A DNA stretch of 64,000 bases from Candidatus Omnitrophota bacterium (lineage in GTDB: Bacteria > Hinthialibacterota > Hinthialibacteria > Hinthialibacterales > JAKPRU01). Positions within the stretch are counted from its first letter, which is position 1. Each line of letters starts with the position of its first letter. The notes under the pieces are model-generated. The model saw only the letters and a program-made list of their open reading frames with translations, was not told the origin of the DNA and made no database searches. Positions 408 through 55,241 of this stretch are shown piece by piece. The DNA is taken from NCBI GenBank assembly GCA_029570205.1, contig JAKQSI010000067.1:1-64000 (forward strand), written 5' to 3'. Made by a program: the position numbers and the translations under genes.

Positions 408-2648
408 TTACAGGAACAACGGAGCGAGCACCAAGGTAATTGTAGACAACAGTTTCACCAGAACATGCAGTGACGGTCCGGCGGTGTCCTTGAACGGGTC
501 ACCGACGGTATCGCCGACAACGGCGGCAGCGTGCACGGGATTCTTGATCTTGTTGCCTTGCTTATCGGTCAGGTACTTACCGCCATGCGCACCGGCTTCG
601 ATGTATTTCTTGGCGTTATCCCAGGCGCCACCGGAGTTGTTCAAAAACAAAGCCATCAGAATGCCGCCGATGGTTCCCACCATCAACAAACCGGCAACGG
701 CCTGCGCGGCGATCAATTCCTCGCCTTCGGTAATGAATATGCGGAAAATCAAGCCGATCGCCACCGGACCGAGAACAGGAAGCAACCCGGGAGCCACCAT
801 CTTCTTAAGAGCCGACTTGGTCACAATGTCCACACAGGAGCTGTAATCCGGCTTGAAGTCCTGAGGGAACTGAATGATGTCGTTCACGCGCGGCAGTTTG
901 GCATACTGATGTCGGACTTCCTCGATGATCGACTGGGCGGTTTTGCCGACCGCGCGGATCGCCATCGCGGAGAACAGGAACACCAGCATGATGCCGAAGA
1001 ACGCACCGCAGAATACCTCCGGTTTGGAGAGATCGACGGTGAAATGGAAGCCCTCCGGTTTCCCCGCGTACTGAACGACCTCATCCATGTATGCCTGGAA
1101 GAGCAGATAAGCAGCCAGACCGGCGGAACCGATGGCATAGCCCTTGGTGAGCGCCTTGGTGGTGTTTCCGACGGCATCCAGGCGGTCCGTTTTCTGGCGG
1201 ATTTCCGCGGGCTGGCGGCTCATCTCCACAATGCCGCCCGCGTTATCGGTGATCGGCCCGAAGGTATCCATGGCCAGGATGTACGCGGCGGTGGCCAACA
1301 TGCCCATGGTTGCCACGGCGGTTCCGAAGAGACCGGCATGTTCCAGGCCGCTGCTTTTGCCGAGATAATACGAACCGAGCAGGGCGGCGATCATCACGAT
1401 GGTCGGCGCAGCGGTGCATTCAAAGCCGACAGAGGTTCCGGCGATGATGTTGGTGGCCGGACCGGTTTTGGATTGTTCGGCGATGGTCTGCACCGGACGG
1501 TACTTATATTCAGTGTAGTACTGGGTGATATAAACGAACAGCACAGAAGTGACGACGCCGACGACTCCGCACAGGAAGAAGTGCCACCAGGCGCTGGGAG
1601 CGGCCTCTGTGTAAAGCAGCCAGCGGGTTGCGACCAGGAACGCCAGCATCGCCAGGCCCACGGCGACATAATAGCCCCGGTTCAGGGCGGTCATGGGATC
1701 CATTTTTTCTTCTTTGTCCAGCTTGACCATCATGATGCCGACGATGGAGGCGATGATTCCGAAGGCACGGGCGACCAGGGGGAACATCATCACACCGACG
1801 ACGCCCATGGAGAATGTAACGCCCGATTTCTGAGAGATACCGGCCAGGGTTGCGCCGAGGATCATCGCGCCGATATTTTCGGCGGCGGTGGACTCGAACA
1901 GGTCGGCGCCACGGCCCGCGCAGTCGCCGACGTTATCGCCGACGAGGTCGGCCACAACAGCGGGGTTGCGGGGATCATCTTCCGGAATACCGGCCTCCAC
2001 TTTGCCGACCAGGTCCGCGCCGACATCGGCGGCCTTGGTGTAGATTCCACCGCCGAGTTGGGCGAACAGGGCAACAAATGATGCGCCGAATCCATACCCG
2101 ACGATCAGCAGGGGGATGCGGGTCGGTTCAACGCTTGTGGTCAGGCTGACCAGCGCATACAGACCGGCGACGCCCAGAAGGCTCATAGCCACAACCAGGA
2201 GTCCGGAGACGGCCCCACCGCGCAGCGAAATCTGCAAAGCATCGTTCAGGCTGCTGAGGGCCGCGTGTGCCGTGCGGATATTGCTGCGGATGGAGACCCA
2301 CATGCCTACGTATCCCGCGAACATGGAGCAGAGCGCACCCAGGATAAATGAGAACCCAATCCAAAAGGCCAACGCCATGGACGAACCAACGGGATCGAAG
2401 TCCTGATGGCTGCGGATGAACCCGTAGGCGATGAAGATGATGAGCGCGACAACCACCGACAGGATCATAATGGTCTGATTCTGGCGGTGTAGAAATGCCT
2501 CCGCGCCCTCTTTAATGGCGTTGGAGATTTTCTGCATCTCCGGACTGCCCGTGCTCTTGTTCAGTACCCATCGGGACAGATAGTACGCGAACCACAGCCC
2601 GAAGAGACTGATTGCGATGACGAGGACTAACAATAAAAACGTCGTCAT
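408..2648 (-). CDS. hppA: Membrane-bound proton-translocating pyrophosphatase
   Basis: Pumps protons across the inner membrane using pyrophosphate hydrolysis. The 746-residue length and about 16 hydrophobic segments match the family. The substrate-binding loops are intact: an ADVGADLVGK-type loop followed by VGDNVGDCAGRGADLFES, and the C-terminal VGDTVGDPFKDTAGPS. The segment GNTTKALTKG carries Lys where potassium-dependent enzymes have Ala, so the family rule predicts a potassium-independent proton pump (inference). GAAAGGA lies upstream of the ATG. It is monocistronic, with a terminator at 301-342 and a ~500-base upstream gap. Recycling pyrophosphate this way suits an energy-limited or anaerobic lifestyle. 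Confidence 0.96.
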   Translation of the reverse strand: MTTFLLLVLVIAISLFGLWFAYYLSRWVLNKSTGSPEMQKISNAIKEGAEAFLHRQNQTIMILSVVVALIIFIAYGFIRSHQDFDPVGSSMALAFWIGFSFILGALCSMFAGYVGMWVSIRSNIRTAHAALSSLNDALQISLRGGAVSGLLVVAMSLLGVAGLYALVSLTTSVEPTRIPLLIVGYGFGASFVALFAQLGGGIYTKAADVGADLVGKVEAGIPEDDPRNPAVVADLVGDNVGDCAGRGADLFESTAAENIGAMILGATLAGISQKSGVTFSMGVVGVMMFPLVARAFGIIASIVGIMMVKLDKEEKMDPMTALNRGYYVAVGLAMLAFLVATRWLLYTEAAPSAWWHFFLCGVVGVVTSVLFVYITQYYTEYKYRPVQTIAEQSKTGPATNIIAGTSVGFECTAAPTIVMIAALLGSYYLGKSSGLEHAGLFGTAVATMGMLATAAYILAMDTFGPITDNAGGIVEMSRQPAEIRQKTDRLDAVGNTTKALTKGYAIGSAGLAAYLLFQAYMDEVVQYAGKPEGFHFTVDLSKPEVFCGAFFGIMLVFLFSAMAIRAVGKTAQSIIEEVRHQYAKLPRVNDIIQFPQDFKPDYSSCVDIVTKSALKKMVAPGLLPVLGPVAIGLIFRIFITEGEELIAAQAVAGLLMVGTIGGILMALFLNNSGGAWDNAKKYIEAGAHGGKYLTDKQGNKIKNPVHAAAVVGDTVGDPFKDTAGPSLHVLVKLLSTITLVLAPLFL

Positions 2649-3459: not shown

Positions 3460-4757
3460 TTCCCGCCCGCAGAGAGGTAGTTCGTGGTGAATTCTTCTTG
3501 TGAAATCACCTTTCGGTCGAGCAGTTGGAGGCCCGTTTTGATACGAAGGGATTCTGCGCGGGCGGCGCCGAATTCATCCGGCTTCTTGTGCGGGCTGAAT
3601 TCATGACGGCAGGTAACGGGGATGTCATGCAGCGCCAGTTCCAGATTTCGCAGCCATTCCACCATGCGTTTTGCGCTTTGTTGGACAGTCGTTGCGTGGT
3701 TGGTTAGTAGTTGATATTGCGATGCGCCCCAGGTTTCGGTTGTCCCCCAGTTTCGTCCCAGCATAAACGGAGCCAGGTGGAGCGCGGAGATGACCTGCTC
3801 GCTGACGGCCTGAAGACTCTCGCTCCATCGGGTGCGATTTCCGCCGACTCCGACATACTCTATCTCGATATTGTCGAAGGTCACAAAATTGCTGTCGGTT
3901 TTCTTTTCCCGAAGACGGTCCCGGATTTCCTGAAACTCGCGCGCGGAGCGTTCGTTGAATACGGAGGGAGATTCGCCGGGCCGAGGCGGGCCGGGCGCGT
4001 ATTTCACATGAAGCGTCGGGAATCCGGCATTGTGTGTTGCGCGGGCCAGGTCGACAATCATCTGCTGCTGAATCCGCGCCACGAGCGGCAGGGCCATCAG
4101 CGGCGAGCGACCGTACGGCGAATCGCCTTCCGCATCTAACGCATAATAGAAAAACGACGCCGGATTGAGCCGCACAAATTTCCCGTCGGGAAGCAGTTGG
4201 TACGGGACCAGGTGACGGTTGATTCGAGTTCGCCGGAATCGAATCGTGGCAGGGTCGATGATATAGAACTTGTCGATTCGGGACCGGTCCTCCGTCAGAA
4301 CCACCTCCCCCGCAAAACTGCCGCAGGTGAACACAGACAGGAAAAACGCCGCCACCAGGGATTCCATTCCCTGGCTTTTCGCGTGCTCGAATTCATGAAT
4401 CCGCCGGTCCAAGCGGGCCAGGATTACTTTTGCGGCCTCATGTTCGGTGGGACTTCCGCCATCCAGGTGCATCGTCTGCGGTGTGTTGCATAGACGCACC
4501 CACGCCCAGACTCCCGCAGAAACATCGGGAATATGGTCCCGCATGTAGCGCAATACAGGAAACAGGACGGTAAAATCCGGTTCCGGCGGCGGGATCATAT
4601 CGGGATCGTTCATCAGCCCGAGTGAGGCATACGATCCGCCGGGGGTGGAAATGGGTTTGACCGGAATGCGGTTTGACTCGGAAACAGTCTCAAACACGGG
4701 GGATTGCCTGCGATGGGAAGGAATGTTGCGCCACAAACGGGAAAAGATGCCTGCCAT
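3456..4757 (-). CDS. Phage portal-like protein
   Basis: A 433-residue soluble protein with the composition and layout of phage portal proteins of the SPP1 gp6/Mu gp29 kind. It has an N-terminal basic stretch, a central segment around ARIQQQMIVDLARATHNAGF, a GRNWGTTETWGASQYQLL segment and helical C-terminal parts. The assignment rests on this overall pattern, not on a catalytic motif. A very good ribosome site (AGGAGG) precedes the ATG. No terminase, capsid or tail gene is nearby, so it is a prophage relic or a domesticated gene. The next frame overlaps it by four bases and is a chimera. Confidence 0.55.
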   Translation of the reverse strand: MAGIFSRLWRNIPSHRRQSPVFETVSESNRIPVKPISTPGGSYASLGLMNDPDMIPPPEPDFTVLFPVLRYMRDHIPDVSAGVWAWVRLCNTPQTMHLDGGSPTEHEAAKVILARLDRRIHEFEHAKSQGMESLVAAFFLSVFTCGSFAGEVVLTEDRSRIDKFYIIDPATIRFRRTRINRHLVPYQLLPDGKFVRLNPASFFYYALDAEGDSPYGRSPLMALPLVARIQQQMIVDLARATHNAGFPTLHVKYAPGPPRPGESPSVFNERSAREFQEIRDRLREKKTDSNFVTFDNIEIEYVGVGGNRTRWSESLQAVSEQVISALHLAPFMLGRNWGTTETWGASQYQLLTNHATTVQQSAKRMVEWLRNLELALHDIPVTCRHEFSPHKKPDEFGAARAESLRIKTGLQLLDRKVISQEEFTTNYLSAGGN

Positions 4758-4831
4758 GATTCCTCCTGGAGAAAATCCGACGGATCATTCTTCTATTTTT
4801 AACGGGAAGAGGGCGGTGACCCGCCATTTTT

Positions 4832-4879
4832 ATACCGCAAACGGTATCATTTGACAGTTGATTCCTGGTGACTTATGGT
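4832..4879 (+). promoter_or_regulatory. Promoter with upstream dyad for the GT39-NHL gene
   Basis: TTGACA (4851-4856), a 17-base spacer and TATGGT (4874-4879) form a sigma-70 type promoter. Directly upstream is the perfect inverted repeat ATACCG-CAAA-CGGTAT (4832-4847), a possible operator. The promoter covers the upstream ATG at 4868, so translation must start further downstream, supporting GTG at 4952. Confidence 0.65.
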
Positions 4880-36145: not shown

Positions 36146-36907
36146 TTAGCCCAGGAAAATATTCGTTCTGTGCCACTGAAGGGAATCCCGTGAAGGAATG
36201 AACCGATGGGGTAGAAGTATTTGTTGCGTATGGTAGCAGATCACATGTTTCTGAACGGCTGGATCGTCCAAGTTCAGCAAGCGCTTAGAGAATTCAATGT
36301 GCATCTCCCCCGTGATGGAAATGAGACCCTTATCGAATAAACGATCAAAAGTTGCACTCAAACAAAGACCATTCGAAGGGTCTGTCCTTTTTTCCTCACT
36401 TACGCTCCAGGGGACAATGTGGCTGGCGATTAGGCATTCAGGAATTCGTATGCCAGTAATGCAACAAGTCCCATTATAGCTACTGAGCACAGCTTCTCGA
36501 AAAAAGTCCTGATGCACTCTGACTTTGGTTTCACGAATGCTTTCCGTCGGCCCTTCTGGTTGAACAAGACTCCCAGTGGAATGCGGCTGATCGCCATGCT
36601 CTTGACGCAATCGATGGGCCTCAAGAACCAGTGCATTCCAATCCTGGTTGAACTCCACCCAAATTTCTCTATCCATCTTACTTGTGTGGACAAGACCCGA
36701 TATCCCTATCCTCATCAGTTCTGGGTCGAAGGCCCCAAAATTCCCCAATTTGCGAGCGACAGAAGCCGGAGTCCGTCCCAAGAAGTGTGCAAGATATTGG
36801 ACTTTCGGGTTGGTTGTCTTTGTCTGTTGAAACGGAATTCGGCAATATAAATCGAAAGCGAGTATCAGTTCTTCTCTGGACCATTTTTCGCCGTAGCGTG
36901 ATCTCAT
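36146..36907 (-). CDS. HNH endonuclease, restriction-type (HNH_2)
   Basis: 253 residues. The N-terminal ~100 form a helical recognition-like part (WSREELILAFDLYCRIPFQQ, then FLGRTPASVARKLGNFG). The C-terminal domain has the HNH_2 signature: CCITGIRIPECLIASHIVPW, then DPSNGLCLSATFDRLFDKG, with the HI, N and His/Asp residues in place. This type occurs as the nuclease of type II and IV-like systems. It lies 165 bases downstream of a C5 cytosine methyltransferase on the same strand, and the two could form a type II system. The GC content seems lower than that of the neighbouring housekeeping genes. Confidence 0.82.
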   Translation of the reverse strand: MRSRYGEKWSREELILAFDLYCRIPFQQTKTTNPKVQYLAHFLGRTPASVARKLGNFGAFDPELMRIGISGLVHTSKMDREIWVEFNQDWNALVLEAHRLRQEHGDQPHSTGSLVQPEGPTESIRETKVRVHQDFFREAVLSSYNGTCCITGIRIPECLIASHIVPWSVSEEKRTDPSNGLCLSATFDRLFDKGLISITGEMHIEFSKRLLNLDDPAVQKHVICYHTQQILLPHRFIPSRDSLQWHRTNIFLG

Positions 36908-37072
36908 CGTGCATCTCTTTCACGAAGAGGAATATCTTTATGCCTTTCCAGCAACACAATAAGATCCGTGACGGACCTTACTCGCCAATGGATCTCAATT
37001 ATGGACCCAGCATGTTGGAACAGCAGTCCATGATTTTCTCCCAGCATGCCCAATCATCCAGGGACTGTTGAT

Positions 37073-38233
37073 TCATCCAAACCAGACAACTGCCAACCCG
37101 GGTGGCTGCGAAGGGACGGCATTGCCGATCTGCTTGGCAATCTCGATTTTGCTGCCCGTAAACCTGAAAGAGTCCGGGAATGATTGCAGTCGGGCTGCTT
37201 CACGGTGAGTAATGGGGCGGTGTTGGCAGGGGTGAAGATACCGGCCTTTTTCCGGCTTGAAAAACTCCGTACGGATAGTGAACGCGGGTCGATCCCACCA
37301 GAGACGCCCGAAAAGGTCCGTTCCGCCCTCGGTTTTCCTGATCCAACACGCCGGAGTCAACTCCGGCGCTCGTTCCTGTAAATCAAAACGGTTCATCCCT
37401 TCTTTGGGAATCGCCATGTACCGCTTCAGACTCTGCGCTGTGGGTGTCCGTCCGAAATGAAGGTCAAGCGGCGGGGCAACATCCCTGATCTCCGTCCTTT
37501 CAGGAGGGGGAAGATCGGCAATCGCGTCGCGCACAGTTCTCCAAGGTCGTGCGCGCGAAATATAAAGGTCGAATTCCTCGGAAAACAACATTCCGGTGTT
37601 CACATCGCCGGGCCTTCGATGGGTCTTCTTCGGTGGAAAAAACTCACCGGGATGAGCAAACTTGCAGCCGATGATAAACGCGCGCCATCGCGTTTGGGAA
37701 ACACCGTAATCCGCTGCACACAATTTAGCGGAGGCTATCCTGAAACCGAGTGCGTGAGCCGCCTCATATATCTCGTCATATTCAATCGACCCAAGAATCT
37801 GGGGCACATTCTCCATCACGAAGATTTCCGCACCTGTGTGTTCGACGACGCGCAGAAAAGGCCGCCAGAGTTGCTTGCGTGGATCACAACCTCGTTGCTT
37901 GTTCAGCAAGCTGAATCCCTGACACGGGGGTCCGCCGATCACAACATCCGCTTCGGGAATCTCGTCAAGGTCGTTCTCCACAATTTCCAAGATATCCGCC
38001 GTGGTGCAGTGATCCCCGAAATTGGCGTTATAGGTCTCCGCCGCAAAGGGATTGAAATCGTTGGCCCAGACAGGTACAAAGGCATGGCTTAACGGTTTGG
38101 TGAAACCGAGCGTCATTCCCCCCGCACCGGCGAAAAGATCGACGATCCGATATGACCGGGAACAATCACACAGGAGTCCCTTTTGCCTGGCTCGATAGAT
38201 CGTCTCATTGTCTGTGATTTTGTCGAACGGCAA
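37073..38233 (-). CDS. DNA (cytosine-5) methyltransferase
   Basis: Transfers methyl from S-adenosylmethionine to C5 of cytosine in a specific site. 386 residues. Motifs in order: I (VDLFAGAGGMTLGF), IV (VVIGGPPCQGFSLLNKQ, catalytic Cys), VI (IFVMENVPQIL), VIII (YGVSQTRWRAFIIG), IX and X (THREAARLQSFPDSF, KQIGNAVP). TTG at 38233 is chosen because GAGGAG lies seven bases upstream and a promoter (38262-38290) lies between it and the earlier ATG. The target site cannot be read. It is the first gene of the restriction-like cluster with the HNH genes at 36146 and 35658. Confidence 0.92.
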   Translation of the reverse strand: MPFDKITDNETIYRARQKGLLCDCSRSYRIVDLFAGAGGMTLGFTKPLSHAFVPVWANDFNPFAAETYNANFGDHCTTADILEIVENDLDEIPEADVVIGGPPCQGFSLLNKQRGCDPRKQLWRPFLRVVEHTGAEIFVMENVPQILGSIEYDEIYEAAHALGFRIASAKLCAADYGVSQTRWRAFIIGCKFAHPGEFFPPKKTHRRPGDVNTGMLFSEEFDLYISRARPWRTVRDAIADLPPPERTEIRDVAPPLDLHFGRTPTAQSLKRYMAIPKEGMNRFDLQERAPELTPACWIRKTEGGTDLFGRLWWDRPAFTIRTEFFKPEKGRYLHPCQHRPITHREAARLQSFPDSFRFTGSKIEIAKQIGNAVPSQPPGLAVVWFG

Positions 38234-38261
38234 GGTTCTTCTCCTCTTATCCCACGACAAA

Positions 38262-38290
38262 ATTATGCCAGATTCCCGTATCTTCAACAA
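38262..38290 (-). promoter_or_regulatory. Methyltransferase promoter
   Basis: TTGTTG (38285-38290), a 17-base spacer and CATAAT (38262-38267) on the minus strand, about 30 bases before the TTG start. Confidence 0.5.
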
Positions 38291-53086: not shown

Positions 53087-53121
53087 GTCGATGAGACCAT
53101 CTTTTTTGTCCTGCTGTTGAA

Positions 53122-53763
53122 CTACTTGCACTTTTCCTGCGCAGGAAACCAACGTTGAAGCAGACATTTGAGCCGGTTGAAGGCCGGGTCGGTGCATCGG
53201 TCCAGACTGACGGTTTGTGCCAGTTGATGATAAATGGAAGATGAGCGCGGTTTTCCCATTTCCCGAAGCGCTGCCTGCACGGCCGCCTTGGGATCGGCGG
53301 GCTTCAGAGTGTCTTCCGTCCAATAGTTGTTCTTGCGTAACCAGGTTCGCAAAGACGGGTCTCGTCCTTCCCAACCCAGGCAGCGATCCACGTGGGGCGA
53401 ATCGCTCCAAACCCATGACTCCAGTTCAGGCTCGATGACCACCACTCCCGCACGATCTCCCCAGCCGGAGTTCGCAAGCCTGCAACGGGCATCTTCCTCA
53501 ACCTTTGTTGCATTCAATCTCATCTCACGACCGCATCCATGGTAGTCGAATATCACGAGGCCGTGCCGATATACCGGAATCATCGGACGAAGAAAACCGT
53601 GGGCATTCAGGAAACATCCTGGATCGTGTTCAGGATGGGCATAGACTCTGAATTGCGGACGCCGAATCCGCAGGGCTTCAGGTCTGAGCAGTAATCCACT
53701 CATTGCATATTCCATGTTTCTATCGGCGACAAGAACTACGAGATCGGATTCTCCGGCATTCAT
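53122..53763 (-). CDS. Partner of the AAA ATPase, possible nuclease-like effector
   Basis: 213 residues of unknown family. Conserved-looking acidic sites suggest a metal-dependent, perhaps TOPRIM-like, active site: DLVVLVADRNMEYAMSG near the start, GLVIFDYHGCGREMR, then VVVIEPELESWVWSDSPHVD. The C-terminal part has LKPADPKAAVQAALREMGKP and FNRLKCLLQRWF. The start ATG 53763 overlaps the ATPase stop by four bases (ATGA) with GGAGG upstream, so the two proteins are made together. I recall similar pairs annotated as MAD3/MAD4 of a methylation-associated defence system; PARIS (AriA/AriB) and RloA/RloB are looser parallels. Confidence 0.6.
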   Translation of the reverse strand: MNAGESDLVVLVADRNMEYAMSGLLLRPEALRIRRPQFRVYAHPEHDPGCFLNAHGFLRPMIPVYRHGLVIFDYHGCGREMRLNATKVEEDARCRLANSGWGDRAGVVVIEPELESWVWSDSPHVDRCLGWEGRDPSLRTWLRKNNYWTEDTLKPADPKAAVQAALREMGKPRSSSIYHQLAQTVSLDRCTDPAFNRLKCLLQRWFPAQEKCK

Positions 53764-54998
53764 CCAAGAACGCCTCCAGCAAAGAGAACGCCGAGGTCGG
53801 TCTCTCCCCGCCAATCTTTCAAAAGGGGATGCTCCATCCCGTTGACGATATCGGTCGCTCCCTCCTCAGTCTTTGCAAAACAAAGTACATCTGAGAGATC
53901 TGCAATGCCGACAAGAACAGGGGAATGTGTTGCCAGTAATACTTGCGCATCATAAATGGAGGAGAGAGACTGCAACATGATTTCCAATGCGCGCGGATGA
54001 ATACCGTTTTCCGGTTCCTCGATCAAAAAGGCTCCTTTCAAATCGGGAATATATGCGGGCAGTGTAAGCGCAAGCAGACGCAACGTCCCGTCTGAAACAA
54101 CCCAAGAAGGAAGCCTCAGATCCCCGCCATAGCGAAGGACAATATAACGATGCCGATCTTCCGGTCTCAGGACCGTTTCAATATCGATCAAATCAGGCAA
54201 GGCCATCCGCAGATGTTGAATCCAATCATTGAATTTGGCACGATGCTTCTCTCTTAGATCCTCAATCATCCACGCAAGATTGGACCCATCCGGTCTGAGA
54301 ATGACAGGTTGTCCCGGCGGACTTGGTTTGCGCATAAGATCGCTTCTCAGCACAACTCGTTGGATTCCTGTCATCAGAAATCGTTTCAACCAGGAAGCGA
54401 TTGGGAATCTCGATTCGTCCTCGGGGAGATTTGCCAGTGCCGATCTAAGAGGACCGAGCTTAAAGGCGTGATCCCACCCCTTACCAGTCTCATCATAGAA
54501 ATTGTCATTGCCGTTCAGAACTTTGTTGACAACGGTCTTTGTCCCTTTTCTTGCTTGGGTCAGAATCGACTCCGGTGCGATCCATGTTTCGGGGAAAAGC
54601 GTCGAACATCTTTCTGCACCATTGAGATCGGATTTCTTGAGGAGGACTTTTTCTGATTGAATATGATTCTCGTGGAGTTCCTTTCCAAAGCCAACACAAA
54701 TCTCGTATCGAACCAACTTGTAGGGCGGATTGCCTTTTAGCGTAGATGGAATCTCGATCTCAACGGCCAGCTCAAAACAGTTCCCTGATCGATTCCATAG
54801 TAAATCCTCAAAAATCTCCGAACGGTCGAAGATCGCCTTTTCCAGTCCTGACGAAACCAGATCGCCTAGAAAGGCGACTACATCGAGAAATGTGGTTTTT
54901 CCACTCCCGTTCGGCCCTACAAGAACGTGAAAACGATTCATCCGGCGCCGGACATATTTCAAACAACGAAACCGTAATGTCTCCACGAGTCGGATCAA
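53760..54998 (-). CDS. AAA (SMC/OLD-like) ATPase of a two-gene defence candidate
   Basis: 412 residues. Walker A is HVLVGPNGSGKTTFLDVVAF (Gly28-Thr35), the Walker B and catalytic Glu are in GAFLIEEPENGIHP (about 322-335), and the His switch is in LLATHSPVLVG; the signature-like region is WVVSDGTLRLLALTLP. This is the AAA_15/AAA_21 type found in RloA, OLD and PARIS AriA. The insert between the halves is short, without a long coiled coil or a C-terminal TOPRIM domain. TTG start with AAGGAA upstream. A partner gene overlaps its stop. It probably senses phage or nucleic acid and controls the partner. Confidence 0.82.
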   Translation of the reverse strand: MIRLVETLRFRCLKYVRRRMNRFHVLVGPNGSGKTTFLDVVAFLGDLVSSGLEKAIFDRSEIFEDLLWNRSGNCFELAVEIEIPSTLKGNPPYKLVRYEICVGFGKELHENHIQSEKVLLKKSDLNGAERCSTLFPETWIAPESILTQARKGTKTVVNKVLNGNDNFYDETGKGWDHAFKLGPLRSALANLPEDESRFPIASWLKRFLMTGIQRVVLRSDLMRKPSPPGQPVILRPDGSNLAWMIEDLREKHRAKFNDWIQHLRMALPDLIDIETVLRPEDRHRYIVLRYGGDLRLPSWVVSDGTLRLLALTLPAYIPDLKGAFLIEEPENGIHPRALEIMLQSLSSIYDAQVLLATHSPVLVGIADLSDVLCFAKTEEGATDIVNGMEHPLLKDWRGETDLGVLFAGGVLG

Positions 54999-55119
54999 GA
55001 AAGTGTTCCTTCCATACGTTCAATCCCGATACTGCCGTTCAATATACCACACCACTGAGGCTCTTTCATCAGTGGGAACAGGCACTTGTCTCTCAATGCC
55101 AAACACTCGGAATCCTTTC

Positions 55120-55148
55120 TTGGCAGCCCGCTATTCGGGCGTTACAAT
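55120..55148 (+). promoter_or_regulatory. tRNA-Leu promoter
   Basis: TTGGCA (55120-55125), a 17-base spacer and TACAAT (55143-55148), with the tRNA starting 12 bases later. The spacer includes the inverted repeat GCCCG-CTATT-CGGGC. Confidence 0.8.
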
Positions 55149-55158
55149 CGCAACGATT

Positions 55159-55241
<83 letters not shown>

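Follow-up and report, generated by a model that had tools for sequence, protein, structure and literature searches.

Two overlapping genes on a Candidatus Omnitrophota contig raise the question of whether MAD3 and MAD4, named as components of the eight-gene MADS system, can act as a defence of their own. The genes lie in the first 64,000 nt of contig JAKQSI010000067.1, a stretch referred to as the window. An earlier note had taken them for a probable stand-alone anti-phage system composed of an OLD/RloA-type ATPase and an unknown partner with an apparent metal site.

The gene pair and its genomic site

The upstream gene (53760..54998, minus strand, 412 aa) encodes a MAD3-like ABC ATPase of the OLD/PtuA type. 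It begins with TTG, and direct reading of the sequence reveals a ribosome-binding-like GGAAGGAA (55006..55013, minus strand) 7 bases 5´ of this codon. The downstream gene (53122..53763, minus strand, 213 aa) runs from an ATG at 53763 to a stop that ends at 53122 and encodes a MAD4-like protein with a predicted Toprim plus helical domain. A 5´-extended MAD4 frame (TTG at 53814) was dropped, as the family starts at the ATG. The MAD3 stop and the MAD4 start share four bases, ATGA (53760..53763, minus strand), which is the overlap described in the earlier note and is conserved in relatives. Both window proteins scored above the cut-offs of their NCBIfam models (NF047739, 486.9 bits, cut-off 420, for MAD3; NF047734, 224.2 bits, cut-off 160, for MAD4), confirming the identities suggested previously. 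In Pfam, MAD3 matched AAA_21 (4e-30), and no family was detected for MAD4 at E 0.1, neither DUF4276 (PF14103) nor RloB (PF13707).

The genomes of two congeners delimit a strain-variable segment of about 2.0 kb (53114..55139) that contains the pair. In congener G002, identity is 94.6% over the stretch that begins with polA and includes the pair, and the two sequences part at 53114, 8 bases beyond the MAD4 stop codon. Congener G001 lacks MAD4; there, the tRNA-Leu gene and its far side are kept, and the match extends only up to 55139. By these comparisons, the pair is thus a variable segment of roughly 2 kb that lies next to tRNA-Leu (tag; 55160..55241, plus strand), which marks the segment's upstream edge and is kept in both congeners. 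The GC content of the segment is 50.6%, compared with 54.6% for the window, and no flanking direct repeats marking an insertion were found around it.

Predicted structures of the ATPase and its partner

MAD3 is an OLD-type ABC ATPase. Its Walker A motif GPNGSGKT (residues 28-35; 54894..54917) has four residues, G28, N30, G33 and K34, that are invariant in 63 homologues. Invariant residues are also found in the ABC signature-like SDGTLR (residues 302-307; 54078..54095; S302, G304, T305 and L306), in the Walker B/D-loop EEPENGIHP (residues 327-335; 53994..54020; E327, E328, E330, H334 and P335) and in the H-loop THSP (residues 357-360; 53919..53930; H358 and S359), all on the minus strand. The solved structure nearest to the AlphaFold2 model (pLDDT 91.3) is PtuA of Septu and retrons (Foldseek 2e-13); Thermus OLD (TsOLD) was matched at 8e-11, and after PtuA the model resembles OLD, SMC and Rad50 heads. 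The OLD/RloA-type assignment made earlier is adjusted in that the ATPase comes closest in structure to PtuA and to OLD/Rad50-type heads.

The partner, previously called unknown, has a recognizable OLD/DUF4276-like Toprim plus helical fold in structure prediction. The AlphaFold2 model of MAD4, made with 72 aligned homologues (pLDDT 91.1), has a core of alternating strands and helices that leads into a helical part. Its best PDB match was 6njv, the nuclease region at the C terminus of Xanthomonas OLD (Foldseek E 1.1e-3, probability 1.00), and the second best was 6p74, TsOLD (3e-3); the support is modest, with a TM of about 0.5 and E of about 1e-3. A sequence search of MAD4 against solved structures gave nothing useful. 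In hhalign comparisons, the MAD4 profile matched one DUF4276 group with E 2.9e-7 and probability 93 over 180 columns, and more weakly with a shorter alignment (E 4.4e-5, probability 69), while unrelated profiles run as negative controls gave 0.06 and 0.23. A second DUF4276 subgroup matched weakly, and no profile match was obtained with RloB (probability 1.4) or with canonical DUF4276 and OLD alignments. MAD4 looks like an OLD/DUF4276-like Toprim plus helical domain, and its relation to DUF4276 appears distant.

The three acidic motifs reported in the earlier note are present at residues 13-18, 72-78 and 110-115. Motif I, ADRNME (A13-E18; 53710..53727), places D14 (70/72 homologues) at the position of the Toprim Glu and also contains E18 (57/72). 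D73 in motif II, FDYHGCG (53530..53550), corresponds to the first Asp of the Toprim DxD and is kept in 72/72, with position 75 being variable, His in the window and usually Glu in the 72 sequences. Motif III, IEPELE (53419..53436), has P112, E113, L114 and E115 in 72/72. These motifs fit a metal site, as had been claimed, and the best fold match is to an OLD Toprim nuclease region, but the claim overlooked D47 in HPEHDPGC (residues 43-50; 53614..53637; 71/72) as well as K154 and K159 in KPADPK (53287..53304), both invariant in 72 sequences; all of these motifs are on the minus strand. D47 may also have a role; following the second strand, it would sit on the same edge as the other site residues. 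The two lysines are candidate catalytic residues like K562 of Burkholderia OLD (BpOLD).

The BpOLD active site consists of E400/E404, D455/D457, T506/E508 and K562, drawn from the Toprim and helical domains (PMC6755086). The short spacings of D14/E18, D73/x75 and E113/E115 in MAD4, followed by K154 and K159, equal those of the three BpOLD pairs and the subsequent Lys, with residues mapped by order, spacing and fold. By this comparison, the MAD4 motif residues, including D14 and K154/K159, may have the corresponding roles. D14, D47, D73, both Glu of PELE/PEVE and the Lys of 'PK' are kept in free copies, in MADS-embedded copies and in a second Pseudomonadota group. MAD4 does not have the canonical Toprim Glu and DxD, with Asp (D14) replacing the Glu and the second Asp being lost, and its acidic site is atypical for Toprim. 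Nuclease activity of MAD4 is uncertain because of these two changes and because E18 is not strictly kept.

Distribution, MADS and the neighbourhood of the pair

A scan of 84,980 species genomes for MAD4, using window-like motifs, gave 80 loci. Because of these motifs, MADS-embedded forms are under-sampled among them. By record titles and tree labels, the loci span more than 20 phyla, including Bacillota, Chloroflexota, Planctomycetota, Acidobacteriota, Armatimonadota, Cyanobacteriota and Myxococcota. Wherever the contig extends far enough (79 loci), the gene immediately upstream of MAD4, in the same orientation, is MAD3; one gene of the pair is broken in L084 and a few other loci. Of the 78 scorable loci, 61 have a start codon that would allow the same -4 overlap and 5 have one that would allow a -1 overlap, and the overlap is therefore not due to chance. 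An apparent one-chain MAD3–MAD4 fusion (L087) was rejected; its frame shifts before the H-loop, most likely reflecting a sequencing or assembly error.

The distribution of the pair is patchy, with copies in 4 of 14 genomes of the phylum and MAD4 matches in 13 of 399 Pseudomonadota genomes. Three of these 13 have a MADS copy. Seven additional copies had sufficient flanking sequence to be judged and are free; one of these shares its genome with a MADS. No MAD4 was found in phage records and viral contigs, and a search of 72,556 plasmid records returned a single MAD4 record, a complete MADS.

For detection of MADS by tblastn, the probes were the eight proteins of the Piscinibacter plasmid MADS (L097), all over NCBIfam cut-offs. 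In agreement with the earlier note, MAD1, MAD2, MAD5, MAD6, MAD7 and MAD8 were not found in the window or the next 20 kb. MAD7 was also not found in the host genome. Near the 80 loci, there were no matches for MAD1, 2, 5, 7 and 8, and the MAD6 probe matched only two generic kinases. One of 40 genomes tested (G093) had MAD7 over the cut-off. Its operon, mad1-mad2-mad5-mad6-mad7-mad8 (L100, G093:C107, 6020-19929; L125), is without mad3 and mad4 and has a gap of about 80 bases between mad2 and mad5; a free MAD3–MAD4 pair is present elsewhere in this genome (L078). We also observed a divergent MADS-like locus, mad6-mad7-mad2-mad5-mad8, without MAD3/MAD4 (L224, G129:C140, 10910-19994), which is possibly a separate system type.

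In the MAD3 tree, which is unrooted and has only four MADS-embedded sequences, those sequences form one clade (100/99) with a long stem. The tree mixes phyla, and the window MAD3 groups with two relatives (98/94); this group belongs to a broader assemblage of free pairs that spans many phyla and lies outside the MADS clade. Like MADS, the window locus has both families over equivalog cut-offs, adjacent and in the same order, whereas the HTH, methyltransferase, specificity subunit, kinase, MAD7 and MAD8 of MADS are missing beside it. The window pair is not part of MADS. The stand-alone character proposed before is borne out in terms of gene content, as the pair is found unaccompanied by the remaining MADS genes, while 'anti-phage' is an interpretation. 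The PADLOC mad3 model matched 3 of 94 random control genes at 1e-20 (A5, L138-L169) and therefore appears unspecific when used alone.

Most immediate neighbours of the pair, including those of the window copy, are housekeeping genes, and the window copy does not lie in a defence island. Given that most copies are found in such surroundings, a role in defence is something that we infer. In three of the 80 relatives (L032, L050 and L055), the pair is flanked by genes for a DUF1156 methylase (HmaB-like) on one side and a DUF499 ATPase (HmaC-like) on the other, and the genes overlap or nearly touch; in L055, there is one extra gene between the pair and the HmaC-like ATPase. This arrangement fits the PADLOC idea of Hma-embedded candidates (HEC), a term that we confirmed (PMC12988326). 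Methylation-based defence genes were commoner near the pair than in controls: DUF499, DUF1156 or PLD-helicase genes were nearby in 11/80 loci compared with 1/36 control stretches, an excess that is no more than suggestive. The 94 immediate neighbours had 146 PADLOC model matches at 1e-20 versus 24 for an equal number of genes picked at random in those genomes, a rough measure because the models are redundant. The earlier note had set homologues occurring mostly outside defence islands as evidence against its proposal, and this applies in part: most copies, that of the window included, lie among housekeeping genes, with a minority embedded in MADS or Hma loci. The window also contains a probable restriction-modification system about 15 kb from the pair (36146-38290, minus strand), where an HNH restriction-like nuclease gene (PADLOC HNH, 281 bits) adjoins one for a C5 DNA methyltransferase (DruM2, 303 bits).

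Related systems and a proposed function

HEC-01 (Hma-embedded candidate 1, PADLOC) resembles the window pair in combining an ATPase with a partner, and three relatives are embedded in Hma-type loci; the window pair, however, is flanked by tRNA and housekeeping genes and is not Hma-embedded. With PADLOC, the window MAD3 matched HEC-01A at 139 bits (4e-41, compared with 2e-195 for one neighbour gene in set A6) and mad3 at 116 bits. The window MAD4 had a weak HEC-01B match of 24 bits, the HEC-01 models being without given cut-offs. Among the 72 MAD4s, 38 matched HEC-01B and 71 matched mad4, weakly, the window copy having no mad4 match. L055 carries a second MAD3-like ATPase gene (3572-4855) upstream of its Hma-like locus, and this gene belongs to A6.

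In PARIS, a proposed OLD class 4 whose ATPase senses an anti-restriction protein, the ABC ATPase (AriA) and the Toprim protein (AriB) are likewise encoded by separate genes. The AriA model matched the window MAD3 at 114 bits, which resembles a generic AAA_21 match, and the AriB model did not match MAD4 at E 0.1. Unlike AriB, MAD4 is nearest to the OLD Toprim plus helical domain and has a site without the canonical Glu and second Asp. AriA sequesters AriB until a phage protein triggers release, after which tRNA is cut (PMC12409363), and OLD proteins act on DNA with ATPase and Toprim working jointly (PMC7049728). OLD class 1/2 proteins, including GajA, also join an ABC ATPase to a Toprim, provide the best MAD4 matches (6njv and 6p74) and have the same active-site spacing, but they are one chain instead of two, and no GajB helicase is adjacent to the window pair. 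In DUF4276 and RloAB pairs, too, an ABC ATPase gene immediately precedes the gene for a Toprim-like protein; the MAD4 profile is related to one DUF4276 group, though below Pfam detection, and has neither a Pfam nor a profile match to RloB. Septu (PtuAB) provides the closest solved structure to MAD3, yet its partner is HNH, whereas MAD4 is Toprim-like by fold and motifs.

Among the DUF4276 genes checked in relatives, almost all are immediately preceded by an ABC ATPase gene, and DUF4276 overall therefore looks like a family of split OLD nucleases. In L179-L206, the ATPase gene ends at the start of nearly every DUF4276 gene. The host genome contains a 640-aa open frame in which a DUF4276-like domain comes after a MAD3-like ATPase (L002, G000:C93, about 460-2450, minus strand), a natural one-chain version of this type of pair. 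Also present in this genome are an RloB gene preceded by one for a Walker A protein (L210, G000:C120) and a gene for an OLD-type Toprim protein (L174, G000:C31), which makes several ATPase–Toprim systems in one genome.

The fold match of MAD4 to the OLD Toprim nuclease region and its profile link to DUF4276 make the pair look like a split OLD-type system. Our main reading, to which we assign a probability of about 0.68, is that MAD3–MAD4 is a two-gene split OLD-type ATPase–nuclease working as a defence without the other MADS genes, with ATP-gated nuclease effector as the most likely function by analogy. We infer a MAD3–MAD4 complex with nuclease activity, a trigger and an anti-phage effect. 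The MAD3 ABC ATPase, most likely a dimer or larger ring, would sense infection and would restrain the MAD4 Toprim nuclease until the trigger. Released or activated, MAD4 would cut nucleic acid, with tRNA (as AriB) or DNA (as OLD) as candidate substrates, through a divergent metal site formed by D14, D47, D73, E113 and E115 together with K154/K159, and either the phage would be blocked or the cell stopped. MADS and Hma loci also have the same module placed after their methyltransferase. More tentatively, we see it as possible, short of probable, that the pair is an autonomous mobile immune module of two genes, much more widespread than MADS, a split OLD-like nuclease acting alone with a non-canonical site, which MADS and Hma each acquired directly after the methyltransferase gene.

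The naming of both genes by NCBIfam as MADS equivalogs, along with the existence of MADS-embedded copies, could instead point to a leftover of a decayed MADS operon, dependent on or bereft of the other genes. This explanation is already largely refuted, and we hold it to be very improbable: no MADS relic was seen around the 80 loci and no MAD7 in the genome, homologues keep the catalytic and ATPase residues, and the window MAD3 lies among free pairs, away from the single long-stem clade (100/99) of MADS-embedded sequences. A housekeeping or DNA-repair/cell-cycle role in place of phage defence, for which the archaeal OLD-like Cran1 is a precedent (PMC12796447), is in our judgement unlikely. The housekeeping surroundings of most copies, the lack of copies in phage records and viral contigs, the single plasmid record and the presence of the pair at the same site in two congeners are consistent with such a role, but the very patchy occurrence (4/14 in the phylum, 13/399 Pseudomonadota), the mixing of phyla in the tree, the absence of the pair from a congener and the embedding of copies in MADS and Hma-like loci argue against it.

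Overlapping genes in a fixed order would also be expected of a toxin–antitoxin-like maintenance module, with MAD4 as the toxic nuclease, MAD3 as its ATP-dependent restrainer and phage defence as secondary, and the wiring would look the same, given that AriA sequesters AriB in PARIS (PMC12409363). Plasmids, however, rarely carry the pair (one record in 72,556, a full MADS). Typical antitoxins are also much smaller than the MAD3 ATPase, a further point against this explanation, which strikes us as quite improbable.

ABC ATPase–Toprim associations, MADS included, have been described (PMC12409363; PMC12839542), and related pairs are already catalogued as HEC-01 candidates. Relative to the published descriptions found, the new points are that most members of the family stand free, that some MADS lack it and that its Toprim site is divergent. 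If the split OLD-type reading is right, it is misleading that these genes are automatically named as MADS components, since free pairs account for most copies found here. It would then become possible to test in isolation what MAD3–MAD4 contributes to the eight-gene system, MAD4 would be recognized as a nuclease whose Toprim site is unusual, and one effector module would be plugged into different methylation-based defences.
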